Positions 3,092 through 48,088 of a stretch of DNA of 48,088 nucleotides are shown piece after piece. Made by a program: the position numbers and the translations under genes. Origin of the DNA: a virus; the IMG/VR virus record IMGVR_UViG_3300050016_000029, positions 1-48,088 of that record. One strand, written 5' to 3'. Each line of letters opens with the position of its first letter. Positions within the stretch are counted from its first letter, which is position 1. The notes beneath the pieces are model-generated. The model was not told where the DNA came from and searched no databases. It worked only from the letters and a program-made list of their open reading frames with translations.

Positions 3092-6000
3092 CTACTTTCC
3101 CTTCATCTGTTGCACATATTCGTTCAGCGACTGCGAGTGCCCCTTAGTATGTCCATAGCGTAGACCAGTAGCCACGCTCCACGGACCCTTTGGCTTCTCA
3201 TGTCCTTGGAAGTAGTTGGTGAGGTACTCTACTATCTTCCCTTCTTGGTTATTTGTCAATCCGTTTAGAAGTCCATTCAAAGCTATAACATCGTGGAAGA
3301 CCTTACCCGCACTAGCCTTGTCAGTGATCTTACCTTTACCTATGTCATGGGCCACGTTGGTGATTGAACTCATAGCAGTAGAGATCAATCCTGCCTCTCC
3401 ACCACGACCACCTAGTAGACCGTGAGCAAAGTCGCGGACACCAACAAGGGAGGAGCTAAGACCTAGGCCCAAGGTCTTTGCGGCTTTCACTCCCCAGGAC
3501 TCCTTGTCATTGTTCGAGTAGGGCGTGACTAACTCCTCAATCAATGCTGGGATAATCAAATACCCAACAAGCATACGCGTAGGTACCACTCCCGCCTTCA
3601 ATGCTTCAGCGTAGTCTCCCTGCTTCGCCATTCCCATAGCGTCCTTATACCTCCACGCGATCTCGTATTGCTTCTGCTGCATGTGATTGAAGAACCCATA
3701 GAGGGAAGTGAACCATTGGCCTAGAGGATTGGCGCGCATTATCGAAGGTCGATTGGTAAGCACTGAGGACCCATGAGCCTGTCGTACAGCCATGTCAGCC
3801 TGTTCGATAGCGGAGCCCTTGTCCATGCCTTCAGCAACGAGCTTCTTATACTGCGCGAGCCATGTGGGGACCGAAGACAACAAGTCACTGATAGAGACTG
3901 GCGTAGCACCAGCCGCTATGTGGATGTCGCGGAAGGAGTCAAAGTTAGATTGTGCCCCACGCAGCTTTAGCTCTTGTCCGTGGCCCTCAATCAACTCGGT
4001 GAAGTTCCGCATACGGCGTTGGAGTTCCATACTGTTATCCATCGCCATTCGCCAGTTAGACTTGTTACCTTCTTCGGAACCTTGCATCAGCGTGGCGAAC
4101 TCGCGGGACCAATTCACAATCCCAACCTGCTGCATAGAGTTTACCAAGGCAGTAGTACCATGCTTCATAACCGTGCCAGGGTTGAAACCAATAAGCCCTG
4201 CAATCAGGTTCTGACGGTAGTACTCCAACGACTGCCCTTGCAACTGTTCAGTAAACGATTTGAAGTTAGCTGCGCCAGCCATATCAGTTAGGAAAGACAT
4301 CATCTCTTCGGCTTGGTGACGGCCGTAATGGGCGATCACTGTCCGCTTGAACTCAGGATCGCGAAAGACCTTCGACACCTGCTGAACCGCTGGGCGCATA
4401 GCGATGTCATGGATCATCTGCTTCATGCGTTGGGGAATGATGTCCATATTGAGTTCGACCGGCGCGACGTATCCAGTACGCTGCTTAGTATAGCCTTGGG
4501 GAGTCGTAGCCTTGTAATATGCACTAGCCTCTGTCTCCCCACCAAGTAGCTTCTTACTCTTACCCGGCCTATACGCGTCGTACTTAACAGGGTTATACCA
4601 ACCTTCGTTGACGTCACCATGTGGGTTGGTGAATGGTTCAAGCGGAAGTTTCTGGATGCCCACGTCGCTAGTCTTGTAAGACATCTCATCGGCCATGCTG
4701 AATAGATCATCAAACACATGGCCCACCTTCTGCATTGTACCCCAGTCTTCCTTGGAAGTGTTACGCTTCAACCAAGCATCAGCGATGTCAGGCTCAACAC
4801 CATAACCCTTGAGAAGCTTCTCCCAACTGGACTTGTTTCCGCGATAGGCGAGTATCCCCATCACGTTCCTCTTCCGCATAGGCAACAACTGACCCGTAAT
4901 AGGATCATGCCAAATCGAATTGTCAACCTGTTTATCCATGTACTCGCGGGTTAGGTTGATCCCGGCGTCGTCAAGCTTCTTCTGGAACTGCTTAAGCAGA
5001 CGGTCCTTATAGTTCGAAGCGCTGGTGAAGGGATAGATTAGGTACTTATGAAAGACCCCATTAGGATCGCCTTTGTCGAAGCGGTTAGCCATAGACTCAA
5101 TATTGATAGCACTCCACCACCACGACTTCGCCTGTTCAGCGCGGGTGTTAAGCTTGCGGTCGTAGGGATACACCTTAGCAGGACCTATGTCCCTAATCTG
5201 CTCTAACATCTCCTTCTTAACATCCGCCCACTCAGCGGCCTCGCCTTGGTGATAGACCTTCTTGTCTTCACGCCCGTACTTTTCAATAGCCTTCACGGAG
5301 TCTCGGACTTGGCGGAACTCTTGAACAGTAAGGTCGTCGTATTGCTTCTTGAAGTTCTCATCAAGCATGAAGTCTGGGACGTGTAAGTCTTGTAGCTCAC
5401 TTTGACTTTTGTCTTCCACAAACTCCTTGAAGCTGTTGTAACCTTCCTTACTAAGGTCGCGTTGGATAGCGTCAAGGTCGCGAGTAGTGCGTTTGCCAAT
5501 GCGAGTGAGCATAGTCTGGATAGCGTTAGAGTACTCGGGCGAGATGTTCTTATTAGGCTTCCCAAGTGTCTTAGCCTTCTTGTCAAAGGCAGCCTTCTCC
5601 TTCTCTAACTTGATAGCTTCGCGAGCCATCATAGTGCTAACCTCTCCGCGCTGCGACTCGCGAAAGGCATCCGCGAACTTGCCATCAAGGAGATGTATTT
5701 CAGCTTGTCTATGAGCCTTACCAGCTTCGGCCAGGTTCTTATTGGAGTCTACATCGCCGTTGATCTTATCTGCGAAGAGCTTCTGAACTCCAGACTTAAT
5801 CTGGTCTTTGGTGAGAGGGTACTGTGCGCTGTCAGGTTTAACGCCGGCACGTTCAGCAGCGGCCAAGACTTGTTCGTGTAGAAGGTTCTCTTGAGTTTCA
5901 GACAGAGCCTGATCCTTCGCTTCATCCAGAATATTCTTCTCTAGATCTCCATACTTACTCTGCATCCTACGCTCAGTCTCAGCGTCGATCAGACGCCGCT

Positions 6001-42151: not shown

Positions 42152-42378
42152 TTCTCAAAGCCACCAAGCTCATAGAATGGTCAACCGGCTCATTCGTCCA
42201 TGAAGGCCGTCTATTTCGTATCCCTATAACCAAGCCCTCTTGGGTCCCCGCTAACGCCGTTACCTCAGCCGTAGAATTGGAGATTCGCCTGTGCCCAGCC
42301 TCGCAGACCACCAGTCCAACGAAACCGTCAAACTCCTACTCACCGGAGACGCCAAGTCTGGAAAGACAGGTTCCCTAA
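42127..42378 (+). CDS. Possible 83-aa protein between nuclease and ATPase genes
   Basis: An open frame from GTG at 42127 with GAGGAAAG upstream. The first 55 residues look protein-like (EATIVLKATKLIEWSTGSF, FRIPITKPSWVPANAVTS). The last 29 codons overlap the Sak4-like gene and look less natural. It fills the only gap between the two genes (about 140 bp). Moderate support only. Confidence 0.45.
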   Translation: MEPLEATIVLKATKLIEWSTGSFVHEGRLFRIPITKPSWVPANAVTSAVELEIRLCPASQTTSPTKPSNSYSPETPSLERQVP

Positions 42379-43148
42379 TCTCGCTTGTGAAGGCTGGATA
42401 CAAGCTCCGTATCCTTGATCTCGATAACCTGCTCGACATCCTCAAGTATCTCGTTCAACAAGAATGCCCAGAGCTAATGGGTAACGTTGAGTACAGAACC
42501 CTTCGTGATAAGCGTAAGGCTACCGCTGCTGGAACTGTTATCGTCGGCCCTCCCAAAGCTTTCATTGAAGCAATCAAGATGCTGGATCATTGGAAATACA
42601 AAGATGATGATGGAACCGAGATAGACTATGGCGTACCCGCTGATTGGGGTCCTGACTGTATCCTTGTGATCGACTCTCTATCACGTCTATGCGACGCTTG
42701 CTATGACTGGCGCGAGCCACTGACTCCCAAAGGCAAGTCTGGTGACTACGATGGTCGCGCTGTCTATGGTGATTCGCAAGACGCCATCGAGAATCTTCTT
42801 GCTACCATCACCAGTCCAACATTCAAAACCAACCTTATCGTCATCGCCCATGGCATGTACATGGACCTACCTGATGGGTCGAAGAAGATATTCCCTCAAG
42901 GTGTAGGGCAGAAGCTCTCGCCGAAGATACCACAATACTTCCCTTCCGTAGTTTACTATTCAAACAGAGGAGGCAAACGCACCTTAAACACAACCTCAAG
43001 TGCAATGATCGATCTCGCAAATCCAAGACCCAACGCAATGGAGAAGACTTACTCTGTTGAAACTGGTTTAGCAGAGTTCTTCGCAGTGCTTAGGGAACCA
43101 CCCACACAACAGAAAGCCAAATCCATCCCACTCAAGAGGACAGCATGA
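42291..43148 (+). CDS. Sak4-like RecA-family ATPase (single-strand annealing/recombination)
   Basis: A 285-aa protein, GTG start at 42291. Walker A is GDAKSGKTGS (Lys25), with a DLDNL strand; Walker B is CILVIDSLSRLCD. A late segment NLIVIAHGMYMDL fits the third RecA-type motif. Size and motif order are those of Sak4/AAA_24 phage ATPases that promote strand annealing together with an SSB. The OB-like protein a few genes on would be its partner. It overlaps the next gene by 4 bp. Confidence 0.85.
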   Translation: MPSLADHQSNETVKLLLTGDAKSGKTGSLISLVKAGYKLRILDLDNLLDILKYLVQQECPELMGNVEYRTLRDKRKATAAGTVIVGPPKAFIEAIKMLDHWKYKDDDGTEIDYGVPADWGPDCILVIDSLSRLCDACYDWREPLTPKGKSGDYDGRAVYGDSQDAIENLLATITSPTFKTNLIVIAHGMYMDLPDGSKKIFPQGVGQKLSPKIPQYFPSVVYYSNRGGKRTLNTTSSAMIDLANPRPNAMEKTYSVETGLAEFFAVLREPPTQQKAKSIPLKRTA

Positions 43149-43580: not shown

Positions 43581-44030
43581 ATGGCAAAAGCACAAGCAAA
43601 ACCAACCTTCGCCTCCATCCTCGACGCACCAGCGACTGAGTTCGAAGCCCCTAAGGCTATGCCTGTAGGGTCTTATGTCGTAGTAGTCTCCGGTCTCCCT
43701 CGCATCGACAAATCTTCGAAGAAGCAGACTGAGTTCGTAGAGTTCACCCTCAACATCCAGTCTGCTCTCGATGACGTTGAACCCGACGAACTGAAGGAGA
43801 TGGGCGGAGTAGCGGGGAAAACTATCAAAGACACCTACTACATCACCGACAACTCTGCCTACCGCCTGAAGGAAACCTTGGTCAACATGGGCATCGACAT
43901 CGAAGGCAAATCCTTCCGCGCGATGTTGGATGAAACACCGGGGAAAACCTACATTATCGTAATCGGACACGAGCCGACTGACGACGGGCGGATCTTTGCC
44001 CGCGTCAAGCGGACGTTGCCGGTAGAGTAG
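43581..44030 (+). CDS. OB-fold-like single-strand DNA-binding protein (candidate)
   Basis: A 149-aa protein with alternating strands (VGSYVVVVSGLPRIDKSSKK, TEFVEFTLNIQSALDD, GKTIKDTYYITDNS, GKTYIIVIGHEPT, GRIFARVKRTL). This is the DUF669-like/OB layout of phage proteins next to Sak4-like ATPases. There is no acidic tip at its C-terminus (it ends TLPVE), which makes the neighbour's SSB-like tip more interesting. Hairpin follows the stop, as for other abundant early proteins. Confidence 0.7.
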   Translation: MAKAQAKPTFASILDAPATEFEAPKAMPVGSYVVVVSGLPRIDKSSKKQTEFVEFTLNIQSALDDVEPDELKEMGGVAGKTIKDTYYITDNSAYRLKETLVNMGIDIEGKSFRAMLDETPGKTYIIVIGHEPTDDGRIFARVKRTLPVE

Positions 44031-44472: not shown

Positions 44473-44629
44473 TCAACAGGGAACTTGGAAACTCCTGTTG
44501 AGTCTGCACTATCACGTTCAGGTCCTCGTCTTCCTCACCGAAGGCGCGGCGAACGAAGCCGAAGATTTCTACTCGAAGCTAGGCTGGCATACCGTAGTTA
44601 TCAATGATGAGTTAGAATCCGATGAGTAA
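44465..44629 (+). CDS. 54-aa protein, GTG start
   Basis: GTG at 44465 overlaps the previous gene by 8 bp and its end overlaps the next gene by 8 bp. The product begins MSDQQGTWKLLLSLHYHVQV and continues LVFLTEGAANEAEDFYSKLG, ending in an acidic tail. The alternating strand and helix look like a real small protein. It fills the gap between two certain genes. Family unknown. Confidence 0.65.
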   Translation: MSDQQGTWKLLLSLHYHVQVLVFLTEGAANEAEDFYSKLGWHTVVINDELESDE

Positions 44630-45722
44630 GCCTATTGTTCTCGTCGGTGAAGCCAAAGGAGAACAAGAAGCTAAGATCAATTCCAGCTTCGTTGGGGCTT
44701 CAGGCATCGAACTCCTTCGTATGCTAGACGAAGCTGGAATCATCTCTCTCACTGGGGCTGACTACGACTCCATCGCTACCTACTACCGCAAGGGCGATCC
44801 TCACAGCATAGATCGCATCTGGCGTAGCCATCCGGAGGTCTACCGAACCAATGTCTTCCAACAACATCCCCCCGCCAACCGAATCGAATCATTCTGCGGG
44901 CCCAAGGCCCAAGCGCTTATTGGATACCCTTTACTCATTAAGGGCAAATACGTCCGTGAGGAATTCCGACCCGAACTCGACCGACTTGCCGAAGAGTTGG
45001 TGGAAATCGACCCCAACCTCATCGTGGCCCTTGGCAACACTCCGCTATGGGCTCTCACTGGTCAAACGGCTATTTCCAAGCGTAGGGGAACCACTTGTCT
45101 ATCTAGCCATACTGCTGCTAGCTTTAAACTCCTTCCTACTTATCATCCTGCTGCTGTTCTTCGGCAATGGGAATTGCGTCCGATAAGTGTGATCGATTTA
45201 GTTAAGGCAAAGCGGGAGAGTGAATACCCAGAGATCCGTCGCCCTCCCCGCGAGGTTTGGATCGAACCAACCCTACAAGACTTGGAGACATTCTATGAAC
45301 AACACATTGTCGGATGCAAAATCCTTTCTGTTGACATTGAGACAAGTGGAAGCCAAGTTACCTGTATTGGATTTGCGACCGGACCGGGACTTGCGATCGT
45401 TCTTCCATTCTATGACTCAAGAAGAAAAGCTAGAAGTTATTGGCATACTCTCGATGACGAACGCAAGGCTTGGGTATATGTTAAAAGAGTGCTCGAACTA
45501 CCTTGTAGGAAACTCTTTCAGAACGGCCTCTACGACATCGCCTTCCTCTGGCGATCAAACGGGATAAAGGTGATGGGTGCGACCCATGATACTATGCTTC
45601 TCCATCATGCCCTTCAGCCTGAGTCCCTTAAAGGTCTAGGCTTCCTAGGTTCGATCTACACCGACGAAGGGAATTGGAAGGATCAGAGGAAGAAGGTTAC
45701 TACTATCAAGGCCGACGAATGA
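44622..45722 (+). CDS. UDG-like domain fused to the N-terminal part of a DEDDy exonuclease (split DNA polymerase, part 1)
   Basis: A 366-aa protein. Residues 1-200 are a family 4-type uracil-DNA glycosylase: VGEAKGEQEA..SSFVGASG (motif 1), LIVALGNTPLWALTG and TYHPAAVLRQ. Residues 230-366 are the start of a proofreading exonuclease: Exo I at VDIETS (Asp238, Glu240) and Exo II at QNGLYDIAFL (Asp305), then DTMLLHHALQPESLKGLGFL. The protein stops before Exo III, which is at the start of the polymerase gene 45955. Fusion of UDG-like and polymerase domains occurs in other phages; here the exonuclease is cut. Confidence 0.88.
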   Translation: MSKPIVLVGEAKGEQEAKINSSFVGASGIELLRMLDEAGIISLTGADYDSIATYYRKGDPHSIDRIWRSHPEVYRTNVFQQHPPANRIESFCGPKAQALIGYPLLIKGKYVREEFRPELDRLAEELVEIDPNLIVALGNTPLWALTGQTAISKRRGTTCLSSHTAASFKLLPTYHPAAVLRQWELRPISVIDLVKAKRESEYPEIRRPPREVWIEPTLQDLETFYEQHIVGCKILSVDIETSGSQVTCIGFATGPGLAIVLPFYDSRRKARSYWHTLDDERKAWVYVKRVLELPCRKLFQNGLYDIAFLWRSNGIKVMGATHDTMLLHHALQPESLKGLGFLGSIYTDEGNWKDQRKKVTTIKADE

Positions 45723-45958
45723 TTAAGCTCTTATTCGTCCCAGAACAATTCCCACGAACCATAGGTCGTGATGAGTGGAAAGAAATCTGGCGTTGGAAGA
45801 GAGTGACTGAACGGGAACTTACAAAGGCTGCCGAGCAACAACGGAATGACTTCATAACATACGGTTCAACTTGGCCTACAGCTGTGAGAGAGCGTATCAT
45901 TAATGAGATGATAAATCCTCCTGTAGTCATACACGATAAACAGGACTTCTTCAAGTGA
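45719..45958 (+). CDS. 79-aa protein inserted in the split exonuclease/polymerase
   Basis: The start ATG at 45719 overlaps the previous stop (ATGA), and its TGA overlaps the GTG of the polymerase (GTGA). The product begins MIKLLFVPEQFPRTIGRDEW, then a basic helix (ERELTKAAEQQRNDF) and an RERIINEMINPPVV segment. No HNH, GIY-YIG or intein motif is visible, so a mobile endonuclease is not supported. It may be a protein that replaced or invaded the loop region, or that bridges the two polymerase parts. Confidence 0.75.
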   Translation: MIKLLFVPEQFPRTIGRDEWKEIWRWKRVTERELTKAAEQQRNDFITYGSTWPTAVRERIINEMINPPVVIHDKQDFFK

Positions 45959-47448
45959 GAATAATCAAAACCCACGAAGTCGACCCTAAAGACATCAAGA
46001 CGCAGTGGGAGCGTGATCAGATTTATAATGGGCTCGACTGTTGTGTGACTGCGGAGGTTCTGGACGAACTCCTCCCACAACTCGATAACCAAACCACCCA
46101 CACCTACGCATTCTCTCGTTCCCTACAAGGTCCAGCACTCGAAATGCGCCTGCGCGGCGTTCTAGTAGACAAAGCCCGAAGGGCAGAGGTGATAGATGAG
46201 TTCTTTGAGAAGCTTGAACAGCTTGAAGCCAACCTTGAACGCATGGCCTTCGAAGGTTGTGGATTACCCAATTTCAACTGGCGATCCAATGCCGACCTCC
46301 AGTTATTGTTTTATGATAAACTCGGTATTCCAATTATTAAAAAGGCAGGGCGACCTACAGTCGATAGAAACGCTCTTGAGAAAATGGAAGCCTACACCGT
46401 AGCCCAACCTCTCGTCTGGCATATGAAGGCTATGCGTGATCTAGGAAAGAAGATTAGTGTACTCAAAACGGAGATAGACCATGATGGACGGATGCGTACT
46501 AGCTATAATATTGCAGGGACCAGCACTGGCCGCTTCAGTTCGAGCTTCTCGGAATTCGGTACAGGCGGAAATCTACAGAACGTGGAAGAGAGCCTTAGAT
46601 CAATCTTCATCGCCGATCCCGGAATGAAGCTGACAAAGTTCGACGCGAAGTCTGGAGAAAGCTTCTGCGTTGGCGCAATAGAGTGGAATCTATTCCATGA
46701 TGGGAGATACCTAGATGTCTGTGAAACTGGAGACCCTCACACAGCAGTTGCTAGAGTTATGTGGCCTGACCTTAGATGGACCGGTGATCTCAGACAAGAT
46801 AGAGATATTGCCGAGCACCCATACTATCGCCATTACACATACCGTTTTATGTGCAAAAAGCTCGGGCACGGTTCGAACTATGGAGGGAAGCCCGATACCC
46901 TCTCAGCCCAAGCCAAGGTCCCAAGACAACTTGTAATTGAGTTCCAACCTAAGTATTTCCAGACGTTCCCCGCTCACCTTCAATGGCAGCATTGGGTCGG
47001 GAATGAGATCAGGCGACATGGGTCGTTGGTGTCCCTCCTAGGCCGCAAGCGCCACTTCTGGGGCCGCAGGAACGACGACTCTACCCTTCGCGAAGCTATC
47101 GCCTACGATCCTCAGTCTAGCCTAGCTGACATAGTAAACACCGCCATGCTCAACATCTGGCACCGTAACATCGCTATCCTCTACATGCACGACCACGACG
47201 CCCTAACCTTCCAATATCCAGAAGCCCACGAAGACACAATCATACCCATCCTACAAGAACACCTCAAAGTACCCATACAACTAGAACACAACCGCGTCAT
47301 GACAATACCATTCGACTGTGTAGTCGGGTACAATAGGGGCAAGTGGGATGCGGAGACTAATCCAGACGGACTCAGGGACTACGAGCCCGGTGACCAAGGC
47401 CGAAGGCGGACCCCGCAAGTTGGCATCTTGGATAGGATCGTTCGTTGA
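45955..47448 (+). CDS. Family A DNA polymerase, with Exo III motif at the N-terminus (split polymerase, part 2)
   Basis: A 497-aa protein, GTG start overlapping the previous TGA. Residues 24-28 (YNGLD) are the Exo III Tyr-x3-Asp, so this chain completes the exonuclease of the gene at 44622. The polymerase part shows GTSTGRFSSS..NLQNV, motif A KFDAKSGESF, motif B RFMCKKLGHGSNYGG and motif C MHDHDALTF. In motif C the position after the catalytic Asp is not Glu, as in several phage polymerases. It replicates the phage genome. About 80 bp before its end the AAA+ gene begins. Confidence 0.9.
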   Translation: MRIIKTHEVDPKDIKTQWERDQIYNGLDCCVTAEVLDELLPQLDNQTTHTYAFSRSLQGPALEMRLRGVLVDKARRAEVIDEFFEKLEQLEANLERMAFEGCGLPNFNWRSNADLQLLFYDKLGIPIIKKAGRPTVDRNALEKMEAYTVAQPLVWHMKAMRDLGKKISVLKTEIDHDGRMRTSYNIAGTSTGRFSSSFSEFGTGGNLQNVEESLRSIFIADPGMKLTKFDAKSGESFCVGAIEWNLFHDGRYLDVCETGDPHTAVARVMWPDLRWTGDLRQDRDIAEHPYYRHYTYRFMCKKLGHGSNYGGKPDTLSAQAKVPRQLVIEFQPKYFQTFPAHLQWQHWVGNEIRRHGSLVSLLGRKRHFWGRRNDDSTLREAIAYDPQSSLADIVNTAMLNIWHRNIAILYMHDHDALTFQYPEAHEDTIIPILQEHLKVPIQLEHNRVMTIPFDCVVGYNRGKWDAETNPDGLRDYEPGDQGRRRTPQVGILDRIVR

Positions 47449-48088
47449 ACACACTTCGAACATCGACAGCCCTGCAATATTCCGTAGGTGGGCGGCGATT
47501 ACTACTCTTGCGGCTGTCTTGGAGCAGAAGGTATGGTTACATAGCGGTGGAGGAATACTATACCCAAACCTCTACGTCTTCCTCGTCGGCCATCCCGGAG
47601 TTGGTAAGACTCGAACAGTCCGCGCTGCAAAATCTTACATCCTCGAAATTCCCGAATTCCATCTTGCCCCCACGTCGATGACCGCTGCGGCACTTATCGA
47701 CATGATGGTCGAGTCTAAGCGGATGGTCATTCGCCTGCCTGAGTCTGCCTTAGAATACAACACCATGATGATCGCAGCAGATGAACTCGGGGCTTTCATT
47801 CATAAGTATGATGATGAGATGATCGCGGTGTTAAGTGCGTTCTACGATCCTGACCCTTATGGGCATAATCGCCGGGGGAAGGATATTCGAATTAAGATCA
47901 AATCGCCACAACTGAATGTTCTCTGTGGGACTACCCCTAGCAACCTTCTGAAGTTCTTGCCCGAAGGCGCTTGGGACCAAGGGTTCACCTCCAGGGTAAT
48001 CATGGTCTTCAGCGATGAGCGGATCGTAGGAGACGACTTCGCTGCGCAACAACGCGAGTTATCCGCCGACCTACTCGCAGACCTCAAG
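47390..48088 (+). CDS. AAA+ ATPase/helicase-like protein, N-terminal part
   Basis: The start is GTG at 47390, inside the polymerase 3' end; an ATG at 47348 with AGGGG eight bases upstream is an alternative. The N-terminus WIGSFVEHTSNIDSPAIFRR, then WAAITTLAAVLEQKVW is typical of phage DUF3987-like helicases. Walker A is VGHPGVGKT (Lys73). MMIAADELGAFI is Walker B, and LNVLCGTTP is sensor 1. The gene continues at base 1 of the window and ends at 625. Confidence 0.85.
   Translation, partial: MTKAEGGPRKLASWIGSFVEHTSNIDSPAIFRRWAAITTLAAVLEQKVWLHSGGGILYPNLYVFLVGHPGVGKTRTVRAAKSYILEIPEFHLAPTSMTAAALIDMMVESKRMVIRLPESALEYNTMMIAADELGAFIHKYDDEMIAVLSAFYDPDPYGHNRRGKDIRIKIKSPQLNVLCGTTPSNLLKFLPEGAWDQGFTSRVIMVFSDERIVGDDFAAQQRELSADLLADLK
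47953..48088. repeat. Terminal direct repeat, right copy
   Basis: The second copy of bases 1-136, one mismatch at 47962. It shows that the window is one full unit of 47,952 bp plus overlap. Confidence 0.9.

Follow-up and report, generated by a model that had tools for sequence, protein, structure and literature searches.

A family A DNA polymerase gene of this virus is split inside its proofreading exonuclease domain, and the same split is found in every distinct relative that has both halves. The polymerase split and its conservation are near certain. To the broader picture, wherein the split is ancestral and fixed, the two coupled chains reassemble, and the joint between their genes acts as a recurrent insertion slot, we assign a probability of roughly 0.78.

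The window (the whole 48,088-nucleotide stretch of viral DNA that was analyzed, corresponding to one entire IMG/VR virus record) carries three consecutive ORFs of 366, 79, and 497 amino acids on the plus strand. Their coordinates and lengths, as well as the 4-bp ATGA and GTGA overlaps that connect them, had been described in a first-pass annotation and are exact in the window sequence. The first ORF (44622..45722) encodes a UDG-exonuclease chain, in which a UDG domain (about 44631-45176; Pfam PF03167, E 1e-13) is accompanied by the N-terminal part of a DnaQ-like 3′-5′ exonuclease. Catalytic residues D238 and E240 of Exo I (SVDIET, 45333..45341) are conserved in 153 of the 153 relatives that cover the site, and Exo II (NGLYD, N301 to D305, in the context QNGLYD; 45522..45536) retains its N in 156/156 and its D in 156/157. 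The third ORF (45955..47448), which begins with a GTG start codon, encodes the polymerase chain. It opens with Exo III (YNGLD, Y24-D28, 46024..46038; Y and D in 157/157) and continues into the family A polymerase domain (PF00476, E 9e-31), where the motif A aspartate D230 (46642..46644; 156/156) and the motif C HD pair (H414-D415, 47194..47199; 154/154) are present throughout. Motif B extends from R297 to Y309 (RFMCKKLGHGSNY, 46843..46881), and an alignment of 23 sequences shows no variation at its residues R297, K301, G304, H305, G306, or N308. The polymerase chain also matches pol I structures in the PDB (best E 4e-19). The earlier assignment of Exo I and Exo II to the first of these ORFs and of Exo III to the beginning of the other is thus confirmed, with catalytic residues conserved. 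Between the two lies the inserted 79-aa gene (45719..45958), which overlaps each neighbor by 4 bp, at 45719..45722 (ATGA) and 45955..45958 (GTGA). Downstream, a DUF3987/primase-helicase-like gene on the same strand (47420..48088; PF13148, E 6e-16; phrog_14296, E 2e-34) overlaps the end of the polymerase gene and runs out of the window.

In a PHROG search, the UDG-exonuclease ORF matches phrog_17 at positions 546-796 (E 7.5e-26) and the polymerase ORF matches it at positions 807-1232 (E 6e-40). These are consecutive stretches of a single family. All the parts of a phrog_17-type enzyme are present, including the UDG domain, the DnaQ exonuclease motifs, and polymerase motifs A, B, and C, and they are carried by two ORFs rather than a single polypeptide in every one of the 157 loci, window included.

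These loci were assembled by searching IMG/VR with the polymerase chain, which yielded 84 relatives, and by profile scans that added further relatives, including distant ones seeded with Caulobacter phage Kuura. A separate profile HMM for each half was used to search every locus, and loci with identical polymerase sequences were removed. The halves reside on separate ORFs in 157/157 distinct loci that have both (window included), and none is fused. The break always falls at the same place in the split loci, wherein the upstream chain stops 9-16 residues past an invariant WK and the downstream chain begins 20-33 residues before the invariant YNGLD. Fused relatives align across this junction with a loop in which WK and YN are 16-18 residues apart, and thus the original placement of the break in the loop between Exo II and Exo III holds. 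The same split is present in the isolated phage Kuura, where two small genes part the halves. No relative was found with a continuous frame across the joints, or with the 79 residues as an in-frame part of one protein. A scan of a genome collection with the UDG-exonuclease alignment returned three short MAG contigs only, with no host link.

The fused relatives, which include Microcystis phage Mel-JY34, MW202489, and others along with a further set of viral contigs, form the outgroup and carry the ancestral gene in contiguous form. In both a 170-row FastTree phylogeny and a 45-row mixture-model IQ-TREE phylogeny, a single change in the split/fused trait is required, at 100% support. We therefore read the fused form, which is the general family A architecture as well, as probably ancestral, and the split as the likely result of a single ancient event. 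An ancestor encoding a one-chain UDG-exonuclease/polymerase would have been cut once in the surface loop that connects Exo II to Exo III, and insertion of a free-standing homing endonuclease gene is the most likely mechanism. The new ends would have gained a C-terminal tail (consensus TIKRDE) and an N-terminal leader (M[KR]II.T) at the break. The founding insertion itself is not observed among the relatives.

A homing endonuclease had been considered an explanation that does not apply directly here, and the window genome indeed has no such gene at its break. This conclusion does not extend to the relatives, 17 of which carry an endonuclease gene exactly at the identical junction. These comprise 12 HNH_3, 3 Endonuclease_7, and 2 LAGLIDADG_3 loci, of which three HNH_3 loci (L079, L163, and L170) and one LAGLIDADG_3 locus score below the Pfam cut-off. 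The 17 occurrences require 15 changes on the tree, which suggests that nearly all of them are independent. Counting genes of the three families at E 0.001 or better, the slot contains 15/139 compared with 2/140 in the interval between the SSB and UDG genes (p about 0.001), an enrichment that weakens to p about 0.03 once the SSB-UDG core genes are removed from the control.

We consider insertion of a homing endonuclease to be the probable founding cause, although it may instead have been a later guest, because 90 of the 107 filled slots have no recognizable endonuclease. An origin without homing endonucleases, for example through a pair of stop and start mutations in a permissive loop that genes invaded only later, is possible though on balance unlikely. 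It would account for the absence of endonucleases from most slots and for the roughly one-third that are empty, and gene 43 of T4-like phages demonstrates that a split may predate its endonuclease (PMC2988022). Against it stand the recurrence of endonucleases at the joint between the polymerase halves and the finding that, within the fused lineage, an HNH gene by itself divides this polymerase at another position, separating UDG from exonuclease in two loci (L244 and L250). In five further loci of that lineage (L241, L245, L246, L247, and L252), the polymerase is interrupted immediately ahead of motif A by other small genes.

Whichever event founded it, the joint now behaves as an insertion slot, and the existence of this slot with its endonucleases is well supported. 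At least one gene fills the joint in 107/157 loci, and it is empty in 46, mostly with a 4-bp ATGA-type overlap (23 loci) or a 1-bp TAATG/TGATG overlap (11 loci). Occupancy requires at least 35 changes between the filled and empty states on the tree. The inserts, which part the halves by roughly 100-1700 bp in most loci, were grouped by BLAST into 88 clusters, of which 66 are singletons. The start of the first insert usually overlaps or abuts the upstream stop codon, and the stop of the last insert usually overlaps or abuts the polymerase start. Neither direct repeats nor microhomology were found flanking the inserts, where the mean match is 4.9 of 10 compared with 4.7 at random positions. Homing endonucleases and many unrelated small genes would thus have entered and left the joint since the split. 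The control junction between the polymerase and helicase genes has a gene-sized gap in only 9/143 relatives. The SSB-UDG interval is variable as well, with a gap of at least 90 bp in 108/122 loci, and tolerance of insertions is therefore not confined to the polymerase joint. Among several such places, this joint is the one that lies within an ancestral gene.

Both halves appear to remain under functional constraint. The D/E of Exo I, the D of Exo II, the Y/D of Exo III, and the metal-binding aspartates of the polymerase are kept in essentially all loci, and close pairs such as L057/L060 exhibit dN values of 0.04-0.06 and dS values of 0.56-0.66 in both halves. The proposal that both chains are needed to complete the proofreading site is supported by this conservation, on the strength of which the chains very probably assemble into one enzyme. 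They would thereby reconstitute a single proofreading family A polymerase. In one relative, L018, the UDG-exonuclease, a TAG codon, and the polymerase share one frame, and so its sequence could serve as a natural proxy for the assembled enzyme, modeled as a single chain with TAG read as Q rather than as two chains. The resulting read-through model (pLDDT 91.7, pTM 0.87) falls below a pLDDT of 50 only at residues 356-366, which correspond to the break, and its match to Klenow-type structures spans about 650 columns that include the exonuclease and polymerase together. This predicted structure is compatible with assembly of the two chains into a single enzyme, without constituting proof.

It is conceivable, though doubtful, that the two-subunit design is actively maintained rather than being a tolerated scar, and that the gene in the slot sets the ratio of the chains. 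If this were true, swapping of slot cargo would tune proofreading and uracil surveillance, and the TIKRDE and M[KR]II.T tails would represent an evolved docking interface combined with a ribosome-binding site.

The occupant of the slot in the window is a case in point. The first-pass annotation saw no homing endonuclease, intein, or intron signature in the 79-aa gene, and our searches bear this out, since the protein matches no Pfam or PHROG family and the gene no Rfam family. The homologs that the annotation proposed to look for number two in total. The first (L159:3452-3667, 45-49% identity) occupies the same slot, directly before a polymerase that is 52% identical to that of the window and after a DUF7768-type gene. 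The other (L082:5001-5225, 30% identity) resides at an unrelated location, next to a tRNA-Gln gene on the L073 contig. A core of FPR-x5-EW.EIWRWKR is kept across all three family members, and a model built from these three sequences predicts a helical hairpin with moderate confidence (pLDDT 78). A tblastn search of phage and plasmid collections with the 79-aa protein gave nothing convincing, and a profile scan of viral contigs with the family recovered only the two known homologs.

The nearest relatives of the window, L002 (82% polymerase identity) and L003 (73%), are likewise split, have an empty ATGA joint, and lack the 79-aa gene. The gene is real, and because the joint is empty in these relatives, it appears from such comparisons to be a recently gained passenger of the slot. 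Moreover, since these two closest relatives are split with nothing in the junction, the gene neither caused the split nor is needed for it. We regard as improbable the alternative in which the 79-aa protein serves as a third subunit dedicated to bridging both chains or tuning proofreading. The position of its gene between the two others, to which it is coupled via 4-bp overlaps, and the occurrence of the 45-49% identical homolog at this joint in another phage, whose polymerase is 52% identical, would fit such a role. However, the relatives with 82% and 73% identical polymerases do without the gene, the third member of the family is located elsewhere next to a tRNA-Gln gene, and most filled slots are occupied by unrelated genes.

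The sequence at the end of the UDG-exonuclease gene offers a candidate route for expression across the joint. In the window, the C-terminal tail TIKADE (45702..45719), whose counterpart is not found in fused relatives, is encoded by codons that include a Shine-Dalgarno-like AAGG (45708-45711) located 7 nt ahead of the next start codon, and a similar AGGA (45942-45945) lies inside the insert upstream of the polymerase start. Among relatives, the arginine of the tail is encoded by AGG in 56/88 loci, compared with 302/3526 for the arginines in the remainder of these genes (p about 6e-36). A Shine-Dalgarno-like motif precedes the ORF that follows the UDG-exonuclease at 60-78% of joints versus 15% of random positions. 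Retention of the tail probably reflects, at least in part, a role as a ribosome-binding site for whichever ORF follows. Because the upstream gene supplies its own Shine-Dalgarno sequence near its 3′ end, translation would extend to whatever ORF begins at the stop codon of this gene, and the chains would be produced in series through stop-start coupling, presumably by re-initiation.

Production of a fused polymerase by programmed frameshifting or stop codon read-through is, by comparison, very unlikely. The ATGA overlaps and the single in-frame TAG-ATG case of L018 would be compatible with it in single genomes. Yet empty junctions have offsets of -4 (the commonest junction in relatives, and that of the window between the UDG-exonuclease gene and the insert), -1, 0, +1, +2, and +3, and hence each of the three possible frame relations is represented, so that a conserved fusion by frameshifting is excluded. 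In most loci, furthermore, genes of roughly 100-1700 bp part the halves.

Splicing is even harder to sustain. SPO1-type group I introns with HNH endonucleases reside in phage polymerase genes. Given such precedents, in which group I introns carrying HNH endonucleases interrupt phage polymerase genes (PMC3428280), the joint could in principle mark a single gene interrupted by a group I intron or an intein that is removed by splicing, and we judge this to be extremely unlikely. No group I intron was matched by Rfam in the window or in 18 relatives, a permissive Rfam scan of the joint produced only a chance miRNA match, and so the intron signature across the insert that would have overturned the annotation is not seen. 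The halves also retain their own separate stop and start codons, even at an empty junction. A split intein would have to be accommodated within a tail of only 9-16 residues past WK and a leader of 20-33 residues, and such a tail is too short for splicing blocks. Finally, although overlapping ATGA and GTGA joints are where frameshifts would create such a picture, an artificial split made by sequencing or assembly errors at both joints has a negligible chance of being correct, because the same residues are broken in 157/157 non-identical loci with variable content between the halves, and in the isolated phage Kuura too.

The closest precedents are splits created by free-standing homing endonucleases, including Aeh1 nrdA/mobE, T4 gene 60/mobA, and gene 43 of phages 25 and 44RR (PMC2988022). 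As in the window, a free-standing gene interrupts an essential replication gene and leaves its halves on separate ORFs, whose products must reassemble, as those of the window very probably do; UAAUGA-type coupling is likewise shared with joints of the window type. However, gene 43 encodes a family B polymerase whereas that of the window clade belongs to family A, and the split in the window clade is ancestral and fixed over a large clade, with a joint that is usually empty or holds genes other than endonucleases. HEG islands near phage polymerase genes (PMC10448857) resemble the slot in their unstable content and in the presence of several endonuclease classes at one locus beside DNA polymerase. 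They are described mainly as neighboring genes, whereas the site described here is inside an ancestral coding sequence and mostly receives non-endonuclease genes.

Other relatives of the enzyme differ in whether and where the chain is broken. The unsplit proteins PaBG gp205 (PMC7412058), SPO1 gp31, and Mel-JY34 have the same domain order, and the halves from the window align to consecutive parts of them; they are single chains, with a loop of 16-18 residues at the position of the break in Mel-JY34-type proteins. In OM43 phages MEP401 and MEP402, PolA is likewise divided into two ORFs, which flank a small ORF of unknown function, and the authors suggested an intron (PMC10580990). There the break is inside the polymerase domain rather than the exonuclease, and turnover at the joint goes unmentioned in the portions consulted. 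Kuura gp029-gp026 (OQ067476, PMC9959647) has the same split as the window, with 35-38% identity and different inserts, and the main text of its report makes no mention of it. Our search, to which most subscription journals were external, found no paper on a fixed split of this kind with an accompanying slot.

The system provides more than 150 natural replicates, in which relatives with an empty joint can be paired with filled counterparts, some of them about 87% identical in DNA. These allow one to ask why split genes outlast the loss of their inserts, how insertion tolerates the co-translation of an essential enzyme, and whether separate chains can supply proofreading and polymerization. It differs from the known cases in that the break lies within the exonuclease fold, the split has a single fixed origin over a large clade, and the joint has since become a slot for genes of many kinds. 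Gene splits by free-standing endonucleases have previously been described one case at a time. Here a single split that cuts the catalytic fold of a replicative polymerase is fixed throughout a large clade of uncultured phages, while its joint has filled and emptied repeatedly.

Within the replication region of the window, genes for a Sak4-like annealing ATPase (42291-43148) and an SSB (43581-44030) lie upstream on the same strand. Among relatives, the interval between the SSB and UDG-exonuclease genes carries DUF6378, DUF3310, ParB_N/DNA methylase and Acb2/Tad1-hairpin-type genes.

In some loci of the fused lineage, wherein Exo II and Exo III remain joined, the enzyme is interrupted elsewhere. 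Two such loci, L244 (positions 1343-1681) and L250, encode the UDG domain apart from the exonuclease-polymerase chain, with an HNH gene in between, and this boundary is a second, independent break site in the same enzyme. The polymerases of L241, L245, L246, L247 and L252 are broken immediately upstream of motif A, where the halves are separated by a 50-aa gene, a 90-aa gene, or a 104-aa gene plus a 216-aa one (methyltransferase-like by eye).

The most frequent non-endonuclease cargo of the Exo II-Exo III joint is DUF7768, present in 12 relatives (e.g., L155, L169 and L177), and KTSC domains occupy this position in five further relatives. In relative L070, the joint holds a gene (positions 4756-4998) whose protein resembles the T7 gp5.9 RecBCD inhibitor (Pfam PF25708, 1e-13). 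Thus, the joint is able to hold anti-host cargo.
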